Below, in pieces: positions 21,746-40,470 of a stretch of 64,000 nt of DNA; the stretch's first letter is position 1, and each line of letters opens with the position of its first letter. The position numbers were made by a program, and so were the translations under genes. The notes under the pieces are model-generated. The model was not told where the DNA came from. It searched no databases and worked only from the letters and a program-made list of their open reading frames with translations. The DNA comes from Perlabentimonas gracilis (GTDB lineage: Bacteria > Bacteroidota > Bacteroidia > Bacteroidales > Tenuifilaceae): NCBI RefSeq assembly GCF_011174675.1, contig NZ_JAANIG010000008.1, positions 1-64,000 on the forward strand, in the 5' to 3' direction.

Positions 21746-22102
21746 ATGTTAGAACATTTGACAATGGAAACATTCAAATCGAAGGTTTTCGATTTTGAGA
21801 AGAATACCGAATGGAAATTCGAGGGCAATAAGCCAGCCGTAATTGATTTTTATGCCGACTGGTGTGGCCCATGCAAAATGGTTGCCCCTATTCTAGAGGA
21901 ACTATCGAAGGAGTACGATGGCAAAATTGATATCTACAAGGTAGACACTGAAGCCGAACAGGAACTTGCCGGACTATTTGGCATTAGAAGCATCCCTTCA
22001 ATCCTATTCATTCCAATGGACGAAAAACCCCAGATGGCTGCCGGCGCATTGCCAAAGGATACCTTTAAGCAGGCGTTTGCCGATGTGCTAAAGGTAAGCT
22101 AA
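21746..22102 (+). CDS. trxA: Thioredoxin
   Basis: 118-residue classical thioredoxin. Active site DWCGPCK (C40, C43), then MVAPILEELSKEY, and cis-Pro motif RSIPSILF. The extension of about 20 residues before the core is longer than in E. coli thioredoxin; an internal ATG at codon 7 is an alternative start. Expected cytoplasmic disulfide reductant, reduced by the adjacent reductase. Last gene of the redox cluster, followed by a large inverted repeat. Confidence 0.95.
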   Translation: MLEHLTMETFKSKVFDFEKNTEWKFEGNKPAVIDFYADWCGPCKMVAPILEELSKEYDGKIDIYKVDTEAEQELAGLFGIRSIPSILFIPMDEKPQMAAGALPKDTFKQAFADVLKVS

Positions 22103-22121
22103 ACCTGATAAGGGTTTATAA

Positions 22122-22215
22122 ACAGGCTGCCCAAAAGGGAGTACCAAAGGGGATAATAGTTCCCTAGCATCTTATAAAACCAGATGTTGCTGTACTTTCC
22201 TTTTGGGCAGCCTGT
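22122..22215. repeat. Long inverted repeat between convergent genes
   Basis: Arms ACAGGCTGCCCAAAAGG (22122-22138) and its exact complement (22199-22215) enclose 60 nt. The stem can continue as AGTAC/GTACT, and the interior has a small hairpin (CATCT..AGATG). It sits between trxA and the response regulator gene and may act as a bidirectional terminator, a structured RNA or a palindromic mobile element. Confidence 0.75.
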
Positions 22216-22222
22216 ATTCTTG

Positions 22223-22978
22223 CTAATTGATACCCTGATGCTGAATGGATGACAGTACAGAGTCCTTTTTTCGTGAGGAAACAGGAATTTGACTCCCGCT
22301 GGTTAGCACCAGCATGCCGCCATCCGATTTTTGGTATCGATCGATAAACCTAAGGTTTACCATATGGCTTTGGTGGCAACGAACAAATCCGTATGCCGAA
22401 AGTAAATCATCGTAATGCTTAATATTGTGCGAAACAGTTATGCGCTTTCCGCTCTCGAGGTAAAAATGGCAGTAGGCCCCATCCGATTCTATACGACATA
22501 AATCAGTGGTTTTAATCAAATGAATATCATCATTGGTCTTAAGCACAATACGTTTATCGTAACGTGTACTCTCGGTTAAATTATGGAGTAATGTTAGCAA
22601 TTCGAGTTGCTTACCCTCATGGGCATTGTGATGAATCGCTTTGCCAATGGCATCCTTAAGTTCAATAGGATTAACGGGTTTTAGAATATAATCGACTGCA
22701 CTAAGCCTAAAGGCTTGCACAGCAAACTGATCGAATGCGGTGATAAAGATTATTTTGAATTCGGGATTAGGAAATGCTTTAACCACATCAAAGCCTGAAC
22801 CATCGGAGAGTTCAATATCAAGGAGAACAGTATCAGGTTTAAATTTCCTAATGCCATCTATGGCATCGGAAACGCTGTGCGCACAACCTAAAATGGTGAT
22901 ATTAGGATAGAAATCGCTAACCATTGCTGTCAGCGTTTCAACCGAGGCTTGCTCATCATCAACAATAAACACACTCAT
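22223..22978 (-). CDS. LytTR-family response regulator
   Basis: 251 residues. N-terminal receiver domain with the acidic pair VDDE (7-8), phosphoacceptor D54 (VLLDIEL), Thr in FITAF and Lys in LKPV. The C-terminal half is a LytTR DNA-binding domain with the typical IVLKT...I...DLCRIES...YCHFYL strand pattern and a YGFVRCHQSHMVNL motif. Its gene follows the sensor kinase gene by 21 bp, forming a standard LytS/YehU-type pair. Targets are not known; the divergent PKD/beta-barrel/caspase operon is a candidate. Confidence 0.93.
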   Translation of the reverse strand: MSVFIVDDEQASVETLTAMVSDFYPNITILGCAHSVSDAIDGIRKFKPDTVLLDIELSDGSGFDVVKAFPNPEFKIIFITAFDQFAVQAFRLSAVDYILKPVNPIELKDAIGKAIHHNAHEGKQLELLTLLHNLTESTRYDKRIVLKTNDDIHLIKTTDLCRIESDGAYCHFYLESGKRITVSHNIKHYDDLLSAYGFVRCHQSHMVNLRFIDRYQKSDGGMLVLTSGSQIPVSSRKKDSVLSSIQHQGIN

Positions 22979-22999
22979 CGATACTAATTGTTAGTTGGA

Positions 23000-24988
23000 C
23001 TAGTTTAGCCTACTTAGGCTATCGCTAAAAAGTAAAGGTAATTTCAGGATTAAGCGAGTACCGCCCCCATCCTCGGCACCAATATCTTCGTATTCAAAAT
23101 TGGCCCTGCATTTGAGCTGCCTGCATAAAACGGAAAGCCGTTCGCGAGTTATCTGGGTGGCTAACGATTTGTGTGTGCCCTCCTTCTTCCCTATAGCCTT
23201 GCTAATACCAATGCCATTGTCAACTACCTCACAGTACAAAATATCGTTGGCCTCAACAAACTTTATTTGAATCATACCGTCTGTTCTATCCTTCTCAAAC
23301 CCATGAATTACGGAATTTTCAACAAAGGGCTGAACAATCAGTGGTGGAATCATTATCTCAGCTGCATCGTTTGCGGTTTCGAGAGCTATTGAATAGTTGA
23401 AAAGGTTGGGAAACCTAACTTTCTGCAAATCTAAAAACAGCTTGATGGCTTCAATTTCCGATTGCAGTGGCACCAGATTACTTCTTGAACTATCGAGTAC
23501 AAGCCTAATAAACTTGGCAAAGCTGGCCACCAGCTCTGCAGCCACCAGCTTGTCGGCCCTATAAACCATATTCTGAATGGCCGAAAGGGAGTTGAACAGG
23601 AAGTGAGGGTTCATCTGCGAACGAAACAATTGATGCTCAAGAATTAGTCTTTGCTGTTTCGATTTTAGTTTGGAACTATAAATCCAAAGAATTGCTAGCA
23701 GGATGGTTGTGAAAAGCAACAAGGATATTGAAATAATTAGGTAGTTCTTGGTTTCATTTTTCTTCTCAAGCGCTGCCGATAGGCTTGCCAAATGGCTAAT
23801 CTCCTCTGTCTTTCGCTCATCTTGGTAAACGACCTCAAGCCTTGAAATCTCATTGCGCTTCTCGAGCGACATTATGCTATCGTTAATCGATGAGTACTGC
23901 AGGTGGTTATGGTATGCCTCAGAATATTTCCCCAGCGCCGCATATGCCTTGGACAAGTGCTTATAGGCGAACCGCTGATTAACCAGAGCAGATGTTTGCT
24001 TTGCCAAGTCGAGCTGCATTTTGGCATATTCAATGGCATGCTCCCAGCCCTCTCTTGCCACCTCCAAATCGGCCAAGTTACCATAAACCAGTGCCAAACC
24101 CTGCTTATTGCCAACCCTTCCCAAGTTTTGTTTTGCCTTATTAAAATACACCTCTGCACTTGCATAGTTACCAAGACGTTTTTCCAGAACACCTAGGTTA
24201 GATTGAATTAAACCTACATTTCCGGTTAATCCATTCGCCTCACAAAAGTTTAAAGCCGCCTCGTAGTGCGGAAGTGCTTCGGCAAACTGTCCGCTGGAGT
24301 TTAAAATGTTGGCTAATGTTAGGCTAGTGGCAGCAATGCCACGCTCATTGCCCAGCTTTTTGTGAAGATCTAACGCTTGCGCTATATACTCCAAAGCTTT
24401 CTCAGGCTCCCCAATCTCTTGATAAATGTTAGCTGTGTTGGTATGAAAAATGGCAATACTTGCGCTATCGTTATACAGCAGAGCAATGTTAACTGCATCC
24501 TGATAGGTTTTAAGAGCATCTGAGTAGTTCCCAAGCTTCTTCTGAAAAACTCCTTTGGAGTTTGCAATGGCAGTATAATCTTGATAGTAGATACTCGGTA
24601 AAATATCCCTGTAAGCCTCTATTTCCAGCAGGGCCTGATCAATTAGGCTCAAAGCATCGGCCAATTTACCGGTGTTGCTATGAGCAACCGCAATGCCCCT
24701 TTGGGCCAAGGCTTTTGAACGAGTTAATTTTGCCCTAATGGTATCGGTATCGCTGTGCCTATTTAACCTCTTCGTTGAAACGTCAATGATTCTCGTGTAA
24801 AGATGGATGGCCGAATCGGGACGGATATCGGCTAGTGAATCGGCACTCCGAATAAAAACCTGCAGCGTATCAACAGGCAGGTTGATAGCCAAATTATTTG
24901 AGGGACTACTATTGCAGCACCACATTGCAATACAGCAAGCAAGTGCAATAAGAGCCAACTTTAGTGATCTGATGAAAGTTAGGTTCAT
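23000..24988 (-). CDS. TPR-containing LytS-type sensor histidine kinase
   Basis: 662 residues. Hydrophobic N-terminal signal or anchor (about 8-27, ending in cysteines), then at least six TPR units (about 75-370), a coiled stretch, one transmembrane helix (about 415-438), and a His_kinase domain with H462 in MNPHFLFNSL, plus a HATPase domain with PFVENSVIHGF and DNGIGI. The TPR part is predicted periplasmic, sensing protein or peptide partners. Partner regulator is encoded just downstream. The N-terminus (AMWCC) could also be read as a weak lipobox. Confidence 0.92.
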   Translation of the reverse strand: MNLTFIRSLKLALIALACCIAMWCCNSSPSNNLAINLPVDTLQVFIRSADSLADIRPDSAIHLYTRIIDVSTKRLNRHSDTDTIRAKLTRSKALAQRGIAVAHSNTGKLADALSLIDQALLEIEAYRDILPSIYYQDYTAIANSKGVFQKKLGNYSDALKTYQDAVNIALLYNDSASIAIFHTNTANIYQEIGEPEKALEYIAQALDLHKKLGNERGIAATSLTLANILNSSGQFAEALPHYEAALNFCEANGLTGNVGLIQSNLGVLEKRLGNYASAEVYFNKAKQNLGRVGNKQGLALVYGNLADLEVAREGWEHAIEYAKMQLDLAKQTSALVNQRFAYKHLSKAYAALGKYSEAYHNHLQYSSINDSIMSLEKRNEISRLEVVYQDERKTEEISHLASLSAALEKKNETKNYLIISISLLLFTTILLAILWIYSSKLKSKQQRLILEHQLFRSQMNPHFLFNSLSAIQNMVYRADKLVAAELVASFAKFIRLVLDSSRSNLVPLQSEIEAIKLFLDLQKVRFPNLFNYSIALETANDAAEIMIPPLIVQPFVENSVIHGFEKDRTDGMIQIKFVEANDILYCEVVDNGIGISKAIGKKEGTHKSLATQITRERLSVLCRQLKCRANFEYEDIGAEDGGGTRLILKLPLLFSDSLSRLN

Positions 24989-25307
24989 AGTACCAAATAA
25001 GAATAAATTTACAGCGATATTTTTAAACCACCTCGTAAATCATCATCTTTTTAAATCTAAAATACTGCTATACAATATAAAGCCTTACAATGCTTGATGT
25101 TTCGACAGAACTATTTTAGCGTGTCTTCACTGTGGTTATACACATTTAAACTAAAACGCCACGAATTTCAATAATCAACTAGCGGATATACAGTAGCTAC
25201 AATTTGATTTTCAGCACGATGTAACTTTGATATAAAGGCAGATAGAATCCCTTTGCAGCCAATGGGTATCTGTCAATTCAAGGATTACTAATTTAAATGA
25301 TGCTGAA
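24989..25307. other. Divergent spacer between kinase and PKD operon
   Basis: A 319-bp A/T-rich non-coding region between the start codons of the sensor kinase gene and the PKD lipoprotein gene. It contains a TAACTTTG element for the plus-strand operon. No promoter was recognised for the kinase and no direct-repeat LytTR site was found by eye. Confidence 0.5.
25222..25229 (+). promoter_or_regulatory. -7 element of the PKD/beta-barrel/caspase operon
   Basis: TAACTTTG matches TAnnTTTG 78 bp before the ATG. A TTTG at 25203-25206 is only 15 nt upstream, shorter than the usual spacer, which may mean an activator is needed. Confidence 0.5.
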
Positions 25308-26279
25308 ATGAAAAAGTTAAAATTACTACACCTACTGCTGGTAGGGTTGTGGTTCTCCTTTGCTGGTTGCGAGGAGGATCCGTACGTGTCGTTTACCGTC
25401 TCATCATCCCTTGTTGCGGTAAATGAAACTGTGACTTTTACAAACTCATCGGTTAATGCCGATCACTTTGAATGGTACTTTGGTGATGGTACTACATCAA
25501 CTGTTGTGAGCCCAACGCATAGCTACAGCAAGGAAGGGGCGTACATCGTAACCCTGGTGGGATATTCTAAATCGGGCAATAAAAAGGACGATGCATACCA
25601 GTTCTACCTGTATGTACTAAACCCACGCCAGGTAACATTTACAAACCCAACCTACACTCCAATCGACATCACCATCGAGGGGTATGGCTCACGAACCATA
25701 CCAGTAGGCGGTAGCACCACCTATCAAGTATACTCATCAACCATTACCCTCAATGCCTCTACCACCGAGAAGTTTACCAATGGCAACCCCTTAGGATTAA
25801 CGGTAACCTGGACAGGCGATATTGAGCTAACCAGCAGCTCCCATACTTTTAATCTGAATGTTGGGCCAGAGTTTTACTACCTACACACCACCAACTACAG
25901 TGGCTATACCTTAGGTCCAGTTCACTCAAATTGGGGTACAACCTATAAGGTTACTGTGAATTGCCAGCTACCATCCGATGGCGTAAAATACAACTTGGGA
26001 TACCATTATGCAAGGTATGGGAACGAGATGAGATGGTACGTTAACACAACAGAATACTTCTATGCCTACCATGGGACTCACTTTAGCTATCCCAATGTTA
26101 ACAACCAAAGTATTTCGATGACTTGTGGAGGAAAAGGACTGGAGAACACTAATTATGACTCTGCTGGGGAAATAGAAGGCCAACAGCAATCGCTCTTTGA
26201 TCTAAGTCCATCGCAACCCCTCATATTTAAAAAGGAGAAGAGTAGCATCGATATCCTATCAGACAAATACTTGCAATAA
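25308..26279 (+). CDS. PKD-domain lipoprotein
   Basis: 323-residue exported lipoprotein with lipobox FAGC (Cys21). A PKD domain spans about residues 28-105, with the characteristic FEWYFGDG and Y.V.L strands. The remaining 210 residues are beta-rich with no recognised family. Probably attached to the outer membrane, on either face. It is the first gene of a three-gene plus-strand operon, 16 bp before the beta-barrel gene. Role unknown; PKD domains usually mediate protein or glycan contacts. Confidence 0.78.
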   Translation: MKKLKLLHLLLVGLWFSFAGCEEDPYVSFTVSSSLVAVNETVTFTNSSVNADHFEWYFGDGTTSTVVSPTHSYSKEGAYIVTLVGYSKSGNKKDDAYQFYLYVLNPRQVTFTNPTYTPIDITIEGYGSRTIPVGGSTTYQVYSSTITLNASTTEKFTNGNPLGLTVTWTGDIELTSSSHTFNLNVGPEFYYLHTTNYSGYTLGPVHSNWGTTYKVTVNCQLPSDGVKYNLGYHYARYGNEMRWYVNTTEYFYAYHGTHFSYPNVNNQSISMTCGGKGLENTNYDSAGEIEGQQQSLFDLSPSQPLIFKKEKSSIDILSDKYLQ

Positions 26280-26295
26280 CTCAAATTCGATAGCC

Positions 26296-27132
26296 ATGAA
26301 ATCAACATACATTACCTATGTATTAGCCATTTTGCTAATACTCACATCAAGCAACATTTTTGCCCAATTCGAGAATAAGGTAACTCTTAACGTTTCATTA
26401 GGAGCAATCCAACCAGTTGGGCAACGGGAATACATCTACCAGTCGCGAAATGGAGCATACCTCAATACGTGGCTCATGCCCTATCTATTCTCAAATTTCG
26501 ATTGTGGTGGAGCCTTTACTGGCGCAGTGATGTTCAACCTAAACCGATCCTTTTCGCTTGGGGTTGGAGTTACAATGGAACGGATAGGGAACTGGGAATA
26601 TATCGACGAGTACACCATGAATGGCGAGAGGGTTGAGAACAACTTCCTGTCATGGAACATTACCCAGGAAAGTAGCATTCTCGACGAGGGAGTAAACGAA
26701 CTCAACATGTACAATCTTGGAATTGGCGTTTTCCCCCGCATTAATATGGCCTATGGTAAACGATTTAACCCCTACGTTTTTGTTGAGGTTACTTTTAACT
26801 ATACCGATATTAACTACATCGATAATAGGCGCAATTCATGGATCGAGTTGGGCGGATCGGAGCAGGATTACGACATATGGTACAACAGCCTAACCAGCCC
26901 ATCGGCCTACAAAAACACTCCCCAACGAAGCTTTGGCATTGGCCTATACCCTGGTATAGGTTTCGATTACAACATCAACAGCAATATTGGAATATTTGTA
27001 CACGGGGGCTATTCGTTTATCAGCATAAACAAGGCCGACTTGGAAGAAGCCAATCTTGAACCCGAAAATTTTACCTCCGCCAAAATCGAAGTTGGATTAA
27101 AATTTAGCTTCCTACGCTCAAAGGATATTTAA
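26296..27132 (+). CDS. Outer-membrane beta-barrel protein
   Basis: 278 residues with a signal peptide (to about residue 24, SSNIFAQ), alternating amphipathic strands, several GxG/aromatic strand ends (for example FGIGLYPGIGFDYN) and a terminal strand IEVGLKFSFL typical of small outer-membrane barrels. No enzymatic motif. Its neighbours are the PKD lipoprotein and the WD40-caspase gene (29-bp gap), so the three may form an envelope complex. Confidence 0.75.
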   Translation: MKSTYITYVLAILLILTSSNIFAQFENKVTLNVSLGAIQPVGQREYIYQSRNGAYLNTWLMPYLFSNFDCGGAFTGAVMFNLNRSFSLGVGVTMERIGNWEYIDEYTMNGERVENNFLSWNITQESSILDEGVNELNMYNLGIGVFPRINMAYGKRFNPYVFVEVTFNYTDINYIDNRRNSWIELGGSEQDYDIWYNSLTSPSAYKNTPQRSFGIGLYPGIGFDYNINSNIGIFVHGGYSFISINKADLEEANLEPENFTSAKIEVGLKFSFLRSKDI

Positions 27133-27161
27133 ACACTTGCAATACTTAATCCGTATGCACA

Positions 27162-29774
27162 ATGGCAAAAGGTATAGTAGCACTTCTCGCACTGGTTTTG
27201 GCTTGCACTCCCCTTACGGGACAGGTTAGCAAGCTAAAACCATTTGGAGATAAAAAGCACAACGTAATCACCTCAACCATTAGCTACGATGGGGCATACA
27301 TTGCAACTGCAGGTGACGACAATGAACTTATTGTTTGGGATTACAACAGTACCAACGTATACCGTAAACTAACAGGGCTCAACCAATGGACAAAGGCCTT
27401 AGCCTTTAGCCGCGACGGCAAGCTGCTTGTTTCGGGCGGAAAGGACAGCAAGGTTTACATTTGGGATATTGACAAATCTTCGGTAATTAAAAACCTAACA
27501 GGCCACACTGGTGATATTTGCGCATTGGCAATAAATCCGCAGAATAACCTGCTAGCCTCTGGGGGTGATGATAATACCATTCGCATTTGGGAACTATCAA
27601 CCGGTAGGCTCTTACAGAGCCTAAGCAAGCAATCGAAAACAATTACCTCGCTCGACTTTAGCCCCAATGGCACATCGTTGATTTCAGGTTCGGCCGATGG
27701 TTCCGTTGTAATTTGGGATACATCTAAATGGACAGCAACTCACACCATTAGCGACCATAAAGGCTGGATTAGATGCGTGGGGTACAGCCCTACGGGAGAA
27801 ACCTTTGCCTCAGCGGGCGACGATCGAACTGTGCGGATTTATAGCTCGACAGGGACTCAAAAGTATGAATTGAGGGGTCACCGAAACTGGGTGCAAAGCC
27901 TTTCGTATAGCGCTGATGGTAAGTACGTGGTTAGCGGTTCACACGATAAAACATTTATAGTTTGGAATGTTGAGAGTGGTGCTGAGGTGTACAAATCGCC
28001 CTCGCTGGGTGATATTGTTTACTCGGTGGGTATGAACCCCAATGGCAAAAGCATTTTATCCACCAACCTGCGCAGCAGCAACCTATCGCTATGGGATGTT
28101 GGGGGACTAAATATCTACTCCACAATTGCAACTACACAAGCACCTGCAAAGGGAGCAACTACACAGGAAGTAAAGGTGGTACAGACTGTTGCCGAAACTA
28201 CCTCGCCACAGCTTGCCCTAAAATCGGTGGTTTTTTCCGATGCCAACAGAAATAACATTATCAATGCGGGCGAGCAGTCATTCATCGACATCTCCATTAG
28301 CAATACGGGAAATGGTGCTGCCAAAATGGTTAAGCTATTTGTAACCGAGCAGAACAATGTTAGCGGCCTCACCTTCTCTCCATTCATAGAGGTTGGCGAT
28401 ATTAATGCCGGACAAACCAAGTCGGTGAAAATATCCATACTAGCCAACGAGGCCATAGCCTCAGCCAGTGCAGATTTCAACATCACCATATCCGAAAGTC
28501 GTGGTTATAGCTGTGAACCAGCTAGACTTGCCATAGCAACAATGAAGCAGGAGGTACCCTTGGTAGTTCTGCATGAGCATAGTTTTACTCCCATTGGTTC
28601 TGAGGTAATATCCAAAGGAAGCAAATTCAAGCTAAGCCTAATGGTTCAGAACAAGGGTGATGCCCCTGCTTACAGCGTAAAGGTGAAGTTTGAACTACCC
28701 GAAAATGCGTTTATAGTGAGTGAACCAGAATTCTTTGTGGCCCAGCTAACGCCCAACGAAACAAAGGTGTTCGAACTTGAGGTGATGACCAACACGCGAT
28801 ACATCCGTCCCGATGTGCCCATAGAGGTTTTTGTTACCGAATCGACAGGGAAATTTGGCGACAGGAAGATTGCCAGCGCACGGCTAAATGAAGGGGCACA
28901 AGGAAATCTGAGTTCACCCATGCTGGCAACTACTACCCAAGCGCAGGCCGCTGCAACTCCTAGGCCAATGCTAAAATCGGATGTGGATATTGATGTACCC
29001 AGAGTGGCAAGCAAAAAACCCAACCGCTACGCTTTAATCATAGGGAACGAGGATTACTCTTCGTATCAACGGGGACTAAAAACCGAATCGGATGTTGAGT
29101 TTGCGGTAAGCGATGCCGAATCGTTTAAGAGATATGCCATTAACATTTTGGGGGTACCCGAGGAGAATGTAATACTACGAACCAATGCCACAGCTATGGA
29201 GATGCACAGAGCCATTAGCCAAATCAATACAATTATAAAGATTGGTGAGGGAAAATCGGAGGTGTTTGTTATGTACGCTGGCCATGGCTTTCCCGATGAG
29301 AAAACCCAGGAACCATATCTAATCCCTGTTGATGTTAGCGGTGCCGACCTGCAATTCGCCATTAAGCTCACCGATTTTTACGCCAAGCTCACCGAGCATC
29401 CATCGAAACGGGTTACCGTTTTCCTCGATGCTTGCTTTAGTGGAGGTGGTCGTGAGCAAGGGCTAATTGCCGCACGTGGAGTAAAGCTACGCCCTAGGGA
29501 AAACGTGCTAAGGGGTAACCTGGTGGTTTTTGCAGCAACATCGGGCGATCAGTCGGCCCTGCCATGGAAAGAAAAAAACCACGGTATGTTTACATACCAC
29601 TTGCTACAAAAGCTAAAGGAGACTAAAGGCGACATTACCTACCAGGAGCTATCGGACTACCTAAAGCACAATGTGGCAACCCGATCAGTTTTAGTTAACC
29701 AAAAGGAGCAGAATCCGCAGACCAACATTAGCAGCGATGTGGTTGACACCTGGGGAAACTGGCGTTTGAAATGA
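27162..29774 (+). CDS. Exported WD40-repeat / caspase-fold (C14) protease
   Basis: 870 residues. An N-terminal signal ends near residue 20; VLAC (Cys15) is a possible but weak lipobox. Seven WD40 blades (about 27-315) have clear GH and WD dipeptides. Two Ig/CARDB-like domains follow (about 350-460 and 465-575), then a linker rich in A/T/Q, then a caspase-family domain (about 622-870). The catalytic dyad is visible: H708 in YAGHGF and C758 in LDACFSG. This is a prokaryotic metacaspase-like (orthocaspase) domain; substrates and any regulation by the WD40 part are unknown. It is the last gene of its operon. An exported caspase-fold enzyme fused to a propeller is uncommon and could be an envelope protease. 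Confidence 0.9.
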   Translation: MAKGIVALLALVLACTPLTGQVSKLKPFGDKKHNVITSTISYDGAYIATAGDDNELIVWDYNSTNVYRKLTGLNQWTKALAFSRDGKLLVSGGKDSKVYIWDIDKSSVIKNLTGHTGDICALAINPQNNLLASGGDDNTIRIWELSTGRLLQSLSKQSKTITSLDFSPNGTSLISGSADGSVVIWDTSKWTATHTISDHKGWIRCVGYSPTGETFASAGDDRTVRIYSSTGTQKYELRGHRNWVQSLSYSADGKYVVSGSHDKTFIVWNVESGAEVYKSPSLGDIVYSVGMNPNGKSILSTNLRSSNLSLWDVGGLNIYSTIATTQAPAKGATTQEVKVVQTVAETTSPQLALKSVVFSDANRNNIINAGEQSFIDISISNTGNGAAKMVKLFVTEQNNVSGLTFSPFIEVGDINAGQTKSVKISILANEAIASASADFNITISESRGYSCEPARLAIATMKQEVPLVVLHEHSFTPIGSEVISKGSKFKLSLMVQNKGDAPAYSVKVKFELPENAFIVSEPEFFVAQLTPNETKVFELEVMTNTRYIRPDVPIEVFVTESTGKFGDRKIASARLNEGAQGNLSSPMLATTTQAQAAATPRPMLKSDVDIDVPRVASKKPNRYALIIGNEDYSSYQRGLKTESDVEFAVSDAESFKRYAINILGVPEENVILRTNATAMEMHRAISQINTIIKIGEGKSEVFVMYAGHGFPDEKTQEPYLIPVDVSGADLQFAIKLTDFYAKLTEHPSKRVTVFLDACFSGGGREQGLIAARGVKLRPRENVLRGNLVVFAATSGDQSALPWKEKNHGMFTYHLLQKLKETKGDITYQELSDYLKHNVATRSVLVNQKEQNPQTNISSDVVDTWGNWRLK

Positions 29775-29798
29775 TGCGATTTTGCCCTTATCCAAACC

Positions 29799-29877
29799 GA
29801 GAAGAGCGGGGAAACAATAAACCCTGGCTGCAAATTTCAGTGTCATTTCATTGCGACACCCTGCTCTTCTCTTTTTT
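29799..29877 (+). terminator. Long-loop terminator after the caspase gene
   Basis: Arms GAGAAGAGCGGGG (29799-29811) and CCCTGCTCTTCTC (29859-29871) pair at 12 of 13 positions, followed by six T residues. The loop of 47 nt contains a minor TGTC/GACA pair. Confidence 0.7.
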
Positions 29878-30044
29878 ATCCAGCATTAGAGACCAATTAG
29901 TAAACATCATTAATTGGGACAAAGAGCCAAGATAATAACAGACTAAAAAATGGTTCTCTCCTTTCATACTCTAGCTACTCAACATGAAAATCGAAAACAT
30001 AAGTGCATACTTCGCAAAATCTTGAGCAGATTAAATTAATAGCA

Positions 30045-30075
30045 AGAAAGAGTGGCCCAATAGACCACTCTTTCT
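30045..30075 (-). terminator. Terminator of purA
   Basis: A perfect 11-bp stem (AGAAAGAGTGG and its complement) with a 9-nt loop, 27 bp past the purA stop on the minus strand. Confidence 0.8.
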
Positions 30076-30101
30076 AGTATAAAATAGTTAGAACAATGAA
30101 A

Positions 30102-31367
30102 TTAATTCCTTATAATAGTGGCTTCCCTATCAGGCCCAACCGATACAATTTTAACAGGAACCCCCGTTTCCTTTTCAATAAACCTTATGTAATCAACTAG
30201 TTCCGCTGGAAAATCGGCTTCGGAGCGGATCTCGGCTAAAGACGTATTCCAGCCCTTAAACTCATGGTAAACGGGTTCTATTTCGGCATCAAACTCGTAG
30301 GGCATAATCTGTGTTTGTTCACCTTTTACTTTGTAAGATGTTGCAATCTTGATGGACTCGAAGGTATCGAGCACATCGGCTTTGGTCATGATGAGAGCAG
30401 TAACCCCGTTAATCATCACGGCATACTTAAGGGCAACCAAATCGAGCCAGCCACAGCGGCGCGGACGACCAGTAGTTGACCCGTACTCATTACCCTCATC
30501 GCGCAGCTTTTGGCCAACCTCATCCTCCAGTTCAGTGGGAAATGGACCTGAACCAACCCGAGTGCAATACGCTTTGAAAATACCGTACACCTCGCCAATG
30601 GCGCTTGGCGCCAAACCCAATCCGGTGCAAGCTCCGGCACAAATGGTGTTAGATGAGGTTACAAATGGATATGATCCGAAATCGATATCGAGCAACGAGC
30701 CCTGCGCTCCCTCAGCCAATATCTTTTTCCCCTCATTCCGATAGCGATTGATTTCGTACTCCGAATCTATCAGTTGAAACTGCTTGATTACTTCTAGGCC
30801 TGCAAACCAATCGGCTTCATGCTGCTCAATGTTGGCCTCATAGTCGTACTGTGCAAGAATATCCTTATGCTTTGCCCTAAGCTGATTATATCGATCATTA
30901 AAGTCGGCTCTAATGGTGTCGCCTACCCTTAGGCCGTTTCGCCCAGTTTTATCCATATAGGTTGGGCCAATACCTTTGAGGGTTGAGCCAATTTTCCCCT
31001 TTCCTTTAGCGGCCTCAGATGCTGCGTCGAGCTCGCGATGCGAGGGAATAATCAGGTGAGCCTTTTTGGAGATGAAAAGGTTCTTAGTTGGTTCAATGCC
31101 CAAAGCACGTAGTGCTGCAATCTCTTTTGCAAAGATCACCGGATCAATCACCACTCCATTACCAATCATATTGATTGAGCTGAGGTGAAAAATACCTGAA
31201 GGGATAGTGTGCAGAACGTGCTTAATGTTGTTAAACTCTAAGGAGTGTCCTGCATTTGGGCCTCCCTGAAATCGAGCTATAACATCGTAGTTTGGGGTAA
31301 GCACATCAACTACTTTTCCTTTGCCCTCGTCGCCCCACTGAAGGCCAAGAAGTACATCAACTTTCAT
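30102..31367 (-). CDS. purA: Adenylosuccinate synthetase
   Basis: 421 residues from the ATG at 31367, chosen because the protein family begins there (MKVDVLLGLQWGDEGKGK). The open frame runs 25 codons further upstream but crosses no conserved sequence. The enzyme uses GTP to join IMP and aspartate, the first committed step to AMP. Visible motifs: WGDEGKGK, GGPNAGH, GTRPMR-type region replaced by GSTTGRPRRCGW, and the GIGPTY segment. Cytoplasmic. It stands alone, with a good promoter and a 3' hairpin. Confidence 0.97.
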   Translation of the reverse strand: MKVDVLLGLQWGDEGKGKVVDVLTPNYDVIARFQGGPNAGHSLEFNNIKHVLHTIPSGIFHLSSINMIGNGVVIDPVIFAKEIAALRALGIEPTKNLFISKKAHLIIPSHRELDAASEAAKGKGKIGSTLKGIGPTYMDKTGRNGLRVGDTIRADFNDRYNQLRAKHKDILAQYDYEANIEQHEADWFAGLEVIKQFQLIDSEYEINRYRNEGKKILAEGAQGSLLDIDFGSYPFVTSSNTICAGACTGLGLAPSAIGEVYGIFKAYCTRVGSGPFPTELEDEVGQKLRDEGNEYGSTTGRPRRCGWLDLVALKYAVMINGVTALIMTKADVLDTFESIKIATSYKVKGEQTQIMPYEFDAEIEPVYHEFKGWNTSLAEIRSEADFPAELVDYIRFIEKETGVPVKIVSVGPDREATIIRN

Positions 31368-31446
31368 ACTTATAACGCTTAAATGGTTGGGAAATGCGCA
31401 ACAAATGCCGGCCATTACGGTCCAGCATCCTGCAAATTTCATGTTC

Positions 31447-36227: not shown

Positions 36228-39134
36228 ATGCGCAATTTTTTCAGCTTAGCCCTATCGATCATGTTGTTATGCAACCTTGCCGTAGGGCAAACCGCTAGAG
36301 TGGTTGGATTGCATAATAGCACTCCCAGCGTATTTGCTTTGACGAATGCAGAGGTTTATGTTGAGCCCGCCAAAGTTCTATCGCAAGCTACCATTGTAAT
36401 TCGCGATGGTGTAATTGAGGATGTGGGCAAAAGGATAGAGATTCCTGCCGATGCCTTTGAAATTGATATGAAGGGAAAGCACATCTACCCCGGATTTATC
36501 GATTTGTATACCAACTATGGAATGCCCGATTCGGTAGATATGAAAAACTCTGTGCACTGGAATGCGCAAATCCGGAGTCACTATAGGGCAACGCCTAGCT
36601 TTGAACCAAATGGTAAAGAGGCGGAGATTCTTCGCTCGCAAGGCTTTGTGCTGGTCAACTCCACGCCAAAATGGGGAATTATTAAAGGCTACAGCACCTT
36701 GGTTAGCCTTGGCGAAGGAGATGCAAATCGCCAAATTGTTATCCCCGATGTTTCGCAGGCTGTATCGTTTCGCCTGAATCGAAGCTTCTCGAGAAACTAC
36801 CCCTCGTCGGTCATGGGAGCCATTGCCCTGTTTAGGCAAGCGTTATACGATGCACAGTGGCACAACCGGGTACATGGGCAATACGCAGAGCAATCGTCGC
36901 TACCGCGTCCGGAGTTTAACCAAGCTTTGTACGACCTTGAATTGGCTCGCTCGGAAGGGAAACCCTTTATTGTGGAGGCAAACAACGAGTTATGGTTGCT
37001 CAAAAACAATGAGCTGGCCAATGAGTTTAATTTAAACCTTTGGATACTTGGTAGTGGGTTCGAATATCGAAGGCTAGATGCTGTAAAAGCAACAAACCGG
37101 CCAATTATCTTGCCGCTAAACTTTCCTAAGGCCCCCGATGTAAATTTGCCTGAGGAATCGATAAATGTTTCTCTTGAATACCTGAGACATTGGTATTTGG
37201 CACCCGATAACCCAGCCAAACTGGCTCAGGCAAAAGTGCCCATAATGCTAACAGCCTTCGGCAGCCGTAAAGACTTCTTGAAAAACCTTAGGGTTGCAGT
37301 AGAAAGGGGACTAAGCGAAACCGATGCACTAGCAGCACTTACCACCACTCCCGCTAAGTACCTGGGCATAGAAACTAAATATGGTAAGATTGAAAAGGGA
37401 AAAGCCGCAAGCCTAACCGTTAGTGCTGGAAATGTATTTCAACCATCATCAGAAATTGTGGAGGTTTGGGTTGATGGCAAAAAGTATGAGGTTGAAAACA
37501 ACCAAAACACCCCAGCAGGAAGATGGACCATTGCAGATTGCGAATTGCTTAACAAGGCTGTAATAGACCTGAAGGGAACAGAAAATCGCCTAAAAGGAAC
37601 GTTGAGCCACAATAGCAAACAGGGCAAACTGAGCAATATTAAGGTTAAGGATTCGCGCATTTCGTTTAGCCTTCAGTCCGATTCCATTGGCCTTAATGGG
37701 ATTATTAGGCTATCGGCAAATATCAACAAAAACCACATGCTTGGAATAGGCGAAACAGCCAATGGGGAGTTCTTTACCTGGCGAGCGGATAAAACCGATA
37801 AGAGTTCCCGAAGCACACCAACAGCCAAGAACTTGCCAAAACTCGACCTTCCAACCCGCTATCCTTCCATGGAGTATGGACTAAGAGAGCCTATGGCTCA
37901 GCCCAAGGTCGTTGTTATAAAAGATGCAACCATTTGGACTCAAAGCGATTTAGGTGTTATAGAAAATGCTGATATGCTAATTGAGAACGGAAAAGTTGTA
38001 AAGGTTGGACACAACCTAAGCGAACCACGCCGTGCCCAAGTTATTAACGCAAGCGGCAAACACATTACCCCTGGACTAATAGACCCGCATATGCACTCGA
38101 GCATAGGTGGTGGCGTAAATGAGGTTGGTGATGCCATAACATCGGAGGTTAGAATTACGGATGTGCTAGAGAACAACGACATTTGGATTTATCGCCAGCT
38201 TGCCGGGGGCCTCACCGCCGGGAAACTTTTCCATGGCTCGGCCAATCCCATAGGCGGACAGGATGCGGCGGTTAAAATGCGCTGGGGCGCTCTGCCCTCC
38301 GACATGTTGATCGACGACGCTACCCCAGGGCTGAAGTTTGCACTGGGCGAGAATGTGAAAAGGCTTGAGGGCAGATACCCCAGCTCTAGGCAGGGAACCG
38401 AGCAAATTATTAAGGATGCTTTCCACGCTGCGATAGAATACGAAAAAGCCATAGAGCGATGGAATGCTAATAAAAATGGAATGCCCGTACGCAGAGACTT
38501 ACAGCTAGAGCCCATCCTCGAAGTTATTAGGGGTAAACGCAAAGCCCATGTGCATGCATATAGACAGGACGAGATGCTTATGACCATACGCCTGGCCGAA
38601 GAGTTTGGGTTTACAGTGGGCTCGTTTGAACATACCCTTGAGGGTTACAAGATTGCCGATGAATTGAAGAACCACGGGGCAGCTGCCGTGGTTTGGAGCG
38701 ATTGGTCGTCGTTTAAACTCGAAGCTTACGACGGAATTCTTCACAACGCCAAGCTCCTAAACGATGTGGGGGTACTCACATCGTTACACTCCGATAACAC
38801 GCAGCTATCCACCCGAATGAACTGGGAGGCGGCCAAGTCGCTTCGGAATGGCGTGTCGGAGGTAGATGCAATGAACCTGATCACCATAAATCCAGCCAAA
38901 ATAATGGGTATCGACCATCGGGTAGGCTCACTCGAAGAGGGCAAAGATGCTGATTTTGTAATATGGAATGGACACCCCTTATCATCTTTCTCGACCCCCG
39001 ATCAAACTTGGGTTGATGGTATAAAATATTTCGATAAGGATGAGGATGTGCTACTGCGCGAGGAGATGAGAGCGGAGCGTATACTAATTATTAACAGGAT
39101 AATCGAGAGCCAGCCGGGCAGCAAGTCAGAGTAA
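36228..39134 (+). CDS. Exported double-domain amidohydrolase
   Basis: 968 residues with a signal peptide (to about residue 21, NLAVGQ). Two amidohydrolase-like units are fused. The first (about 30-425) has the family fold signature KHIYPGFIDLYTNYG but lacks the metal-binding HxH. The second (about 560-950) opens with KHITPGLIDPHMH, with metal ligands H621 and H623, further histidines in AHVHAY and FEHTLEG, and the acidic SLHSDN motif, so it looks active. Imidazolonepropionase-like or peptidase-like amidohydrolases of this type are common in Bacteroidota; substrate unknown. It is followed at 28 bp by another amidohydrolase-family gene. Periplasmic. Confidence 0.85.
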   Translation: MRNFFSLALSIMLLCNLAVGQTARVVGLHNSTPSVFALTNAEVYVEPAKVLSQATIVIRDGVIEDVGKRIEIPADAFEIDMKGKHIYPGFIDLYTNYGMPDSVDMKNSVHWNAQIRSHYRATPSFEPNGKEAEILRSQGFVLVNSTPKWGIIKGYSTLVSLGEGDANRQIVIPDVSQAVSFRLNRSFSRNYPSSVMGAIALFRQALYDAQWHNRVHGQYAEQSSLPRPEFNQALYDLELARSEGKPFIVEANNELWLLKNNELANEFNLNLWILGSGFEYRRLDAVKATNRPIILPLNFPKAPDVNLPEESINVSLEYLRHWYLAPDNPAKLAQAKVPIMLTAFGSRKDFLKNLRVAVERGLSETDALAALTTTPAKYLGIETKYGKIEKGKAASLTVSAGNVFQPSSEIVEVWVDGKKYEVENNQNTPAGRWTIADCELLNKAVIDLKGTENRLKGTLSHNSKQGKLSNIKVKDSRISFSLQSDSIGLNGIIRLSANINKNHMLGIGETANGEFFTWRADKTDKSSRSTPTAKNLPKLDLPTRYPSMEYGLREPMAQPKVVVIKDATIWTQSDLGVIENADMLIENGKVVKVGHNLSEPRRAQVINASGKHITPGLIDPHMHSSIGGGVNEVGDAITSEVRITDVLENNDIWIYRQLAGGLTAGKLFHGSANPIGGQDAAVKMRWGALPSDMLIDDATPGLKFALGENVKRLEGRYPSSRQGTEQIIKDAFHAAIEYEKAIERWNANKNGMPVRRDLQLEPILEVIRGKRKAHVHAYRQDEMLMTIRLAEEFGFTVGSFEHTLEGYKIADELKNHGAAAVVWSDWSSFKLEAYDGILHNAKLLNDVGVLTSLHSDNTQLSTRMNWEAAKSLRNGVSEVDAMNLITINPAKIMGIDHRVGSLEEGKDADFVIWNGHPLSSFSTPDQTWVDGIKYFDKDEDVLLREEMRAERILIINRIIESQPGSKSE

Positions 39135-39162
39135 AGTAGCTATCAACTTAAATCGATTGAAG

Positions 39163-40470
39163 ATGAAATCAATATACATCAACAGAACATTGAAAAACTT
39201 ACTATCGGCCATGCTAATGGTTGCTTTGCTTACCCTAAACCAACTGGCCGTGGGACAAACACCCGTTGCTAAACAGCAAAAGCCTATTGCCATAGCTGGA
39301 GCCACTATCCACACTATGGTCAGTGATCCTATCGAAAATGGCACAATTCTTTTAGATAAAGGTAAAATTGTGGCCATTGGCACCAGCATTACCATTCCCG
39401 GTGATGCAGAGGTAATAAACGCTAACGGAAAGCATATTTACCCAGGGCTAATTCACGCAAGGAGCGGCACTGGACTGATGGAGATTAGCCGAATTGCCGA
39501 GGGGAACGATATGAGCGAGGAGGGGAATATAAATCCTAACCTAAGGCTACAGGTTGCATTCAATGCGGTTAGCGAGCATTTACCAGCCGCCGCGGTAAGT
39601 GGCGTTACTACCATTGTCCCCTCACCCACCTCGGGTACCATAGCGGGCACTACATCAGCAATGGTTACCGAGGGCTGGACATGGGAGAAGATGACCATGA
39701 AGGAGGGCATTGGAATGGTTGTGAACTGGCCATCGACACGAAACGCTAAGGAGTACAGCAAACAGGTTGATGAGCTACAAAAAGCCATTGATGATGCACG
39801 CCGATATATGCTCGCTCGAAAGGCAATGCAGGGTGGAAAAACCAAGGCTCATCATCAATACAATATCCGATGGGAAGCGATGATACCTGTAATAAAAGGC
39901 GAACTGCCAATGTTTATATCGGCAAGCAACATTAAGGAGATACAAGAGGCCATAGCTTGGGCGCAAAAGGAAGGCATTAGAATGGTACTGGTGGGAAACC
40001 GGGACTTGGGTCTGCTTGCCCCGCAGCTGGCACAACTGCAAATTCCCGTTATAGTTGCAGGAAGTATTGGTGGCCCAACTCGCCAGTGGGAGGGTTACAG
40101 CGAGGGATATAGCACCCCATTGCACCTATTCAACTCAGGCGTTGAGTTTTGCATTGCTGGCGATGCTTTTGCTCCATACGCATACCGCATACATCATCAC
40201 GCTGCCGCAGCCGCAGCATTTGGTTTGCCTTCTGATGAAGCGCTCAAATCAATCACCATAAATGCAGCAAAAATACTGGGCATCGATGATATGGTGGGCA
40301 GCCTAGAGGTTGGCAAGGATGCCTCGCTAATAGTAACCGATGGGCACCCACTGGAGCTCAGCTCGAGCCGTGAGCAGGTTTTTATACAGGGGCGCAAAAT
40401 TGATATGACCGATAAGCACAAACGGCTATACGAAAGATACCTAGAGAAGCATCTTCAGGAAAACCTATAG
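39163..40470 (+). CDS. Exported amidohydrolase-family protein with degenerate metal site
   Basis: 435 residues from the ATG at 39163 (a TTG lies at 39157). A signal peptide ends near AVGQ. The fold signature is present (GKHIYPGLI...; C-terminal NAAKILGIDDMVGSLEVGKDASLIV), but the expected DxHxH reads IHARSG, so the first metal ligands are lost. It is similar in layout to the N-terminal half of the preceding protein and probably forms a complex with it. Its stop is only 10 bp from the stop of the convergent M16 gene, with no terminator between. Confidence 0.8.
   Translation: MKSIYINRTLKNLLSAMLMVALLTLNQLAVGQTPVAKQQKPIAIAGATIHTMVSDPIENGTILLDKGKIVAIGTSITIPGDAEVINANGKHIYPGLIHARSGTGLMEISRIAEGNDMSEEGNINPNLRLQVAFNAVSEHLPAAAVSGVTTIVPSPTSGTIAGTTSAMVTEGWTWEKMTMKEGIGMVVNWPSTRNAKEYSKQVDELQKAIDDARRYMLARKAMQGGKTKAHHQYNIRWEAMIPVIKGELPMFISASNIKEIQEAIAWAQKEGIRMVLVGNRDLGLLAPQLAQLQIPVIVAGSIGGPTRQWEGYSEGYSTPLHLFNSGVEFCIAGDAFAPYAYRIHHHAAAAAAFGLPSDEALKSITINAAKILGIDDMVGSLEVGKDASLIVTDGHPLELSSSREQVFIQGRKIDMTDKHKRLYERYLEKHLQENL

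Follow-up and report, generated by a model that had tools for sequence, protein, structure and literature searches.

Prokaryotic members of peptidase family C14, the metacaspases and orthocaspases, combine a protease domain bearing a His/Cys dyad with other domains. In the accessible text of PMC3501461, the domain most often combined with a prokaryotic metacaspase is WD40 (73 of 671 sequences), 46 metacaspase sequences have an N-terminal helix, possibly a signal peptide, and 14 of 217 metacaspase operons include OmpA. That bacterial metacaspases degrade proteins extracellularly is a speculation in the accessible part of PMC4933709. The C14 members other than caspases that had been characterised up to 2017 prefer Arg and/or Lys strictly, according to the available portion of PMC5756287. 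A protein of this kind is encoded in the stretch analysed here (the window), which comprises 64,000 nucleotides (nt) of Perlabentimonas gracilis (contig NZ_JAANIG010000008.1, positions 1 to 64,000). It is a predicted exported protein with a WD40 propeller, two immunoglobulin-like (Ig-like) domains and a C-terminal caspase, and its gene follows those of a PKD-domain lipoprotein and an outer-membrane barrel. A sensor kinase and a LytTR regulator are encoded divergently. A first-pass annotation, made from the sequence alone, had described these genes as an envelope operon ending in a caspase-type protease with its own barrel and regulatory pair. That observation is confirmed and is more than chance, since the block recurs in relatives. 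Compared genomes and loci carry G and L numbers, G000 being the window genome and G011 Bacteroidales bacterium UBA2287.

The barrel and WD40-caspase gene pair

The barrel and the WD40-caspase form a two-gene core that is wider than the window locus and recurs in distant relatives. When 1097 neighbouring open reading frames (ORFs) were clustered regardless of position, the barrel cluster had 15 members, 14 of which immediately precede a same-strand caspase gene (two loci are counted twice, and two caspases, L085 and L090, have a common C-terminus). After de-duplication the barrel lies directly upstream in 11 of 19 WD40-caspases and in 0 of 82 caspases without WD40 (Fisher p 4.8e-10, unadjusted for kinship), so that the phrase 'its own barrel' in the first-pass annotation is well supported. 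The barrel protein reaches 2.1e-4 and 21.9 bits with Pfam OMP_b-brl, below the cut-off of 28.7. Its AlphaFold model has eight strands, with Foldseek matches to OmpA, OprG, OmpW, NspA and OmpX in the PDB. Barrel relatives are similar in their mature start, (A)QFE.K, and in their C-terminal end, [KR][SA][KR].[LI]. The family is narrow. Across 395 genomes of the class a barrel model, itself made from the barrels found at these loci, matches only the window genome below 1e-12, the next match being at 1.3e-12 (at most seven candidates scored per genome), and across 395 genomes of the phylum it finds two further genomes (7e-15 and 1.9e-13). In a limited test at 21 loci (of 33 places), no caspase or WD40 gene was seen beside weak barrel matches within flanks of about 1.5 kb.

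The caspase domain scores 71.3 bits with Pfam Peptidase_C14 (cut-off 21.4) and has the catalytic His and Cys of that family, His708 and Cys758, at the positions given by the first-pass annotation, whose coordinates for the three plus-strand genes, with gaps of 16 and 29 nt and the kinase and regulator on the opposite strand, are likewise borne out. Compared with solved structures, the single domain sequence gives no match up to an E of 0.1; the caspase profile recovers PDB entries of MALT1 and of metacaspases. Asp756 and Asp651 are candidate residues of an acidic S1 pocket. An AlphaFold model of the whole protein of 870 amino acids (aa), made from 40 sequences hand-picked from the loci (13 full-length proteins and 27 caspase domains), consists of propeller, two Ig-like domains and caspase, with disordered segments at 324-346 and 576-603; the loop at 762-774 comes shortly after Cys758. 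The best Foldseek match of the propeller, 5yzv, is a solved prokaryotic WD40 domain (TMt 0.95).

Relatives were found in genome contigs by an alignment of the caspase domain and not by the full-length protein. The best 80 of 415 loci found by two scan patterns (one of them DACFSG[GL][AG]R), together with loci from relatives, gave 101 caspases after de-duplication by the last 120 residues, and 100 of these entered the tree and the residue counts. Several contigs end near the caspase, where a missing neighbour is not an absent one. All 100 domains retain Asp651, His708, Asp756 and Cys758, and 96 of the 100 have Arg or Lys at position 772. Residues 651, 708 and 772 lie outside both scan patterns; Asp756, Cys758 and Arg764 fall within one of them, so that their conservation comes in part from the search itself. 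The domain (265 residues) is commonly 50-66% identical between proteins with differing N-terminal parts, falling to 38% at the low end of the alignment. A strong match occurs in 20 of 27 family genomes, with up to nine matches, some distant, in one genome, and at 1e-30 the domain is found in 41 of 395 class genomes.

The same caspase subfamily adjoins other envelope genes. At L035:6372-11054 (G000 contig C81) the genes after the paralogous caspase of the window genome encode an exported protein of 477 aa that matches no Pfam family and then a kelch-repeat lipoprotein. At L089:2716-11787 (UBA2287) related genes stand, among the rows listed, as two such caspase triads in tandem, kelch having been tested on L035 only. 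A Fib_succ_major lipoprotein lies upstream of the caspase at L043. At L105, L126, L134, L135, L137 and L139 the caspase is preceded by genes for a cluster 5 lipoprotein and for a cluster 6 protein some 260-300 aa long, and at several of these six a cluster 2 gene is nearby, the members tested having no Pfam match over cut-off.

All three envelope proteins have export signals, as first claimed: a FAGC lipobox in the PKD protein and hydrophobic N-termini in the predicted barrel and caspase proteins. Of the 97 caspases whose N-terminus is intact, 91 pass a crude screen for a hydrophobic N-terminus; of 877 neighbour ORFs, 473 do. Four of the six caspase failures read as over-called starts. Nothing pointing to a cytoplasmic protease was seen in the sequences. 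A surface location of the protease, in line with the surface processing that the first-pass annotation had entertained, found no support. No type IX sorting model was matched in NCBIfam by the three window proteins or by any of 11 WD40-caspases (that of the window included), nor in Pfam by the lipoprotein and the barrel, nor among the 25 of 62 Pfam families listed for the caspase protein. Type IX surface export of the caspase was rejected because no C-terminal sorting model matched; the periplasm is therefore a simpler location than the surface, and the protease is most likely periplasmic.

The window and G011 are sisters on the barrel (support 100/100) and on WD40 plus linker (98/96), whereas in the caspase-domain tree G011 pairs with a G007 protein of another architecture (97) and the window domain falls in with seven WD40-less caspases (96). 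Forcing the two caspase domains together costs 43.8 log units, with a p-value of 0.0056 in the approximately unbiased test (p-AU) that is optimistic, since the test covered 43 of the 100 domains on a quick tree and was chosen after the first tree had suggested the split. As the scaffold is orthologous and the caspase domains are not sisters, exchange of the protease module is the simplest reading: the caspase domain was probably replaced in one lineage on a constant scaffold of barrel and WD40/Ig parts. Old paralogy with differential loss is the alternative. A constant barrel and propeller with an exchangeable protease would suggest that the scaffold sets where and when, and that the caspase only cuts.

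Distribution of the block and its regulatory pair

A sequence search with the barrel in the 27 family genomes matched one other genome, G011, which belongs to another genus (2 of 27 in all). There (DDWL01000053.1, L091) the kinase, the LytTR regulator, three other genes, the PKD lipoprotein, the barrel and the WD40-caspase lie on one strand, with identities to the window of 41% for the kinase, 48.6% for the regulator, 44% for the PKD lipoprotein (C-terminal part), 67% for the barrel and 53% for the WD40-caspase. G015 (L088/L141), of a third genus, has the kinase, the regulator (43.9%), a diverged barrel and the WD40-caspase in a row, and no PKD lipoprotein. The idea that the genes act as a unit gains support from the five that recur in G011, the four kinds in G015 and the one variable site that they fill. 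Conservation of the block in relatives, on which the first-pass annotation had staked its proposal, is seen in these two genomes, and such relatives are few.

The block fills the window interval 22103-30101 between thioredoxin (21746-22102) and purA (30102-31442). In the congeners G001 and G004 (L153, L154) thioredoxin and purA are adjacent, 87 and 194 nt apart, and in G002 and G003 (L151, L152) the site holds a different four-gene cassette whose second gene, read from its sequence, resembles an extracytoplasmic function (ECF) sigma factor. A query with the Ig-caspase part at 1e-10 had no match in any of these four congeners. The corresponding site of G011 (L155) holds two other genes, its block lying elsewhere. 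Since the intervals of the congeners are near-empty or otherwise filled, the five window genes arrived, or have been retained, as a single unit at a variable site and constitute an accessory block. Composition gives no sign of a recent foreign origin, the GC content of the block (0.415-0.473 per kb) resembling that of its flanks.

By their Pfam domains the kinase (PF06580) and the receiver-LytTR regulator qualify as a LytTR two-component pair; a hydrophobic stretch at about 417-440 and an N-terminal export or lipid signal can be read in the kinase sequence. The kinases of the window, G011, G017 and G015 form a clade (support 100/99). Among the 26 other family genomes, the window kinase has its two best relatives in G011 and G015, each no more than 7 kb from a barrel-WD40-caspase pair. 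LytTR genes are common, with 18 in G000, 14 in G011 and 5 in the 63%-complete G015. A LytTR regulator of this type (model E up to 1e-20) is present in the stretch around the caspase at 3 of the 11 barrel-WD40 loci and at 2 of the other 90 (p 0.009). Control of the block by the pair is plausible from this linkage. An exclusive linkage of kinase and caspase was rejected, G017 having the kinase without the caspase.

At L142, L144, L145 and L146, mostly judged from sequence, relatives of the pair adjoin barrel-like or lipoprotein genes with no caspase, and the pair looks as if it might be a general regulator of envelope modules. A TPR kinase of another type lies divergently, 208-260 nt from an exported non-WD40 caspase, in three metagenome-assembled genomes (L069:3458-7040, L071:5228-8798 and L079:5146-8798); that of L069, the only one tested for domains, has HisKA plus HATPase_c. 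Downstream of the block, window positions 36228-39134 and 39157-40470 encode adjacent amidohydrolase-domain proteins with export-like N-termini.

Table 1. Features of the block in window coordinates (pLDDT, predicted local distance difference test)
Feature	Coordinates	Strand	Basis
LytTR response regulator, 251 aa	22223..22978	-	Receiver 3-111 (PF00072), LytTR 151-241 (PF04397)
LytS-type sensor kinase with TPR repeats, 662 aa	23000..24988	-	Pfam PF06580, TPR_12
Divergent intergenic region, 319 nt, GC 0.32	24989..25307	.	One TAnnTTTG hexamer at ~25222 on +
PKD-domain lipoprotein, 323 aa	25308..26279	+	Pfam PKD_4 5.9e-11; lipobox FAGC, Cys21; orthologue in G011
Predicted eight-stranded outer-membrane barrel, 278 aa	26296..27132	+	Alignment, AlphaFold model, Foldseek
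Predicted exported WD40 / two Ig-like / caspase protein, 870 aa	27162..29774	+	Pfam, AlphaFold model
Seven-bladed WD40 propeller, ~residues 22-320	27225..28121	+	Pfam; pLDDT >90 over most; Foldseek 5yzv
Two Ig-like (CARDB / NEW3-type) domains, ~351-461 and 473-577	28212..28892	+	Pfam CARDB, NPCBM_assoc; model strands
C-terminal caspase domain, residues 605-870	28974..29771	+	Pfam Peptidase_C14 at 622-856; alignment
Catalytic His708 codon	29283..29285	+	His in 100/100 domains
Catalytic Cys758 codon	29433..29435	+	Asp756 at Cys-2 aligns with the Asp two residues before the catalytic Cys of MALT1
Low-confidence loop, residues 762-774, with Arg764 and Arg772; candidate self-cleavage region	29445..29483	+	pLDDT <50; 772 Arg/Lys in 96/100

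A possible envelope switch and competing readings

The block is read here, tentatively and at somewhat less than an even chance, as an envelope protease switch. The reading draws on the genes, their export signals, the dyad, the barrel fold, the recurrent pairing and the recurrence of the block, each established by sequence or by model. The WD40/Ig/caspase protein would be exported through Sec into the periplasm, where its propeller may dock it to the cognate barrel encoded just upstream or be gated by that barrel. The C-terminal caspase would be a zymogen-like, Arg/Lys-specific protease, probably activated by cutting its loop at a basic site close to Arg772. Once activated it would cut envelope proteins, the PKD lipoprotein being a candidate substrate or surface reader. 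The TPR kinase would sense the state of the envelope and the LytTR regulator would set expression of the block. Export, the lack of a type IX model, the intact dyad and the basic flexible loop together make a periplasmic self-cleaving zymogen the most economical arrangement. A bolder version, rather unlikely as a whole, is an outer-membrane-gated caspase in which barrel and WD40/Ig parts would serve as a constant envelope sensor and caspase domains from one pool would be swapped, making a periplasmic proteolytic switch in Bacteroidota. Its logic would be analogous to propeller-gated caspase activation in eukaryotes, here without the ATPase.

Several findings weigh against such a switch, beginning with the residue conservation that the scan pattern itself partly builds in. 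The PKD lipoprotein occurs only at the window and G011 loci, and 8 of the 19 WD40-caspases are without the barrel, five of these being a short form of 630-638 aa. The barrel model is moderate (pLDDT 72, TM-scores to the query of at most 0.49). The model of the caspase protein has a predicted TM-score (pTM) of 0.46 and hence does not fix the placement of its domains; the 50 Foldseek matches listed for the whole model are propellers only, informative on the propeller and not on the caspase fold. The kinase clade includes G017, which is without a caspase of the subfamily, and the trees of kinase and regulator disagree. A LytTR consensus picked out no similar repeats in 24989-25307, such sites being variable.

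The last of these findings bears on the possibility that the pair controls other genes and is simply carried along with the barrel-caspase operon. Relatives of the pair adjoin other envelope genes without a caspase in G017, G018, G021 and G023, and the orientation differs, divergent in the window and on the same strand with three genes between in G011. Against this stand the linkage, kept in three genera, and the nearness of the two best kinase relatives to the gene pair, so that separate units are somewhat unlikely. The first-pass suggestion that the pair may control the block thus keeps its linkage and lacks the binding repeats.

Constitutive processing or turnover of secreted and surface proteins, such as the lipoproteins of the block, would need no switch, the barrel acting as an anchor only. 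Such a housekeeping maturation protease is in keeping with a numerous subfamily found beside varied lipoproteins (the kelch lipoprotein by the window genome's paralogue, for example) and with the 16 metacaspase operons of cell-surface function, and the OmpA of 14 operons, in the accessible text of PMC3501461. The patchy distribution (0 of 4 congeners, near-empty sites) argues that this is not a core function, and that a sensor/regulator pair is linked to the protease gene in each of three genera also speaks against it; the idea is doubtful, if credible.

A cell-death or conflict device of the envelope, whose protease would be freed by damage, phage adsorption or competitor attack to kill or lyse the cell or its neighbour, is improbable: the accessory distribution, an apparent exchange of caspase modules on a constant scaffold that would resemble effector-swapping conflict systems, a weak NCBIfam match to EACC1-associated caspases, a formal parallel to the EACC1 systems of PMC7159879 (as far as its accessible text goes) in the 5' membrane gene and 3' caspase gene, and the extracellular or fratricidal roles suggested for some metacaspases in the available part of PMC3501461 are set against a PADLOC run on the five block proteins that gave generic models, for the caspase protein 'caspase' and repeat models only, a score under the EACC1 cut-off, and the accessible text of PMC7159879, where exported caspases are not described.

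To our knowledge the trigger or substrate has been established for only a few prokaryotic caspase homologues. Here one lineage offers a recurrent partner (the barrel), a likely compartment (the periplasm) and candidates for both the self-cleavage site and the regulator, which makes the question of how a bacterial caspase is switched on directly testable in a two-gene system. If true, the exchange of proteases on a constant scaffold would suggest that specificity is carried by the scaffold and not by the protease.

Comparison with described systems

The EACC1-caspase system, as it appears in the accessible text of PMC7159879, resembles the window pair in having two genes, a 5' membrane component, a 3' caspase and variable domains on one part. 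In contrast to it, the 5' gene of the window encodes a modelled eight-stranded barrel and not the single-helix EACC1, and the caspase is C-terminal (605-870) and not N-terminal. Membership was rejected: NF047832 reaches 55.2 bits against a cut-off of 140 and the defining features fail.

The regulatory genes recall the TPR-LytS/LytTR pairs of Bacteroidota, for example Porphyromonas FimS (an NCBIfam name), which likewise have a TPR sensor with His_kinase and a LytTR regulator. The window kinase, however, is far below the model cut-off (75 of 600 bits), and the output of the window pair is presumed to be the barrel-caspase operon.

With the prokaryotic WD40 caspase homologues the window protein shares the C14 domain, the His/Cys dyad, the WD40 partner and the expected Arg/Lys specificity. 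It differs in that its caspase is C-terminal, preceded by a propeller and two Ig-like domains, in its predicted export and in its coupling to a barrel gene. The accessible text of PMC3501461 mentions OmpA operons and contains no pairing of a caspase with an outer-membrane barrel, and no description of a barrel-coupled exported WD40-caspase was found among the listed titles and abstract openings of the open-licence literature. WD40-caspases are known in print and exported ones suspected; what is new here is the barrel-coupled, probably module-swapping form.

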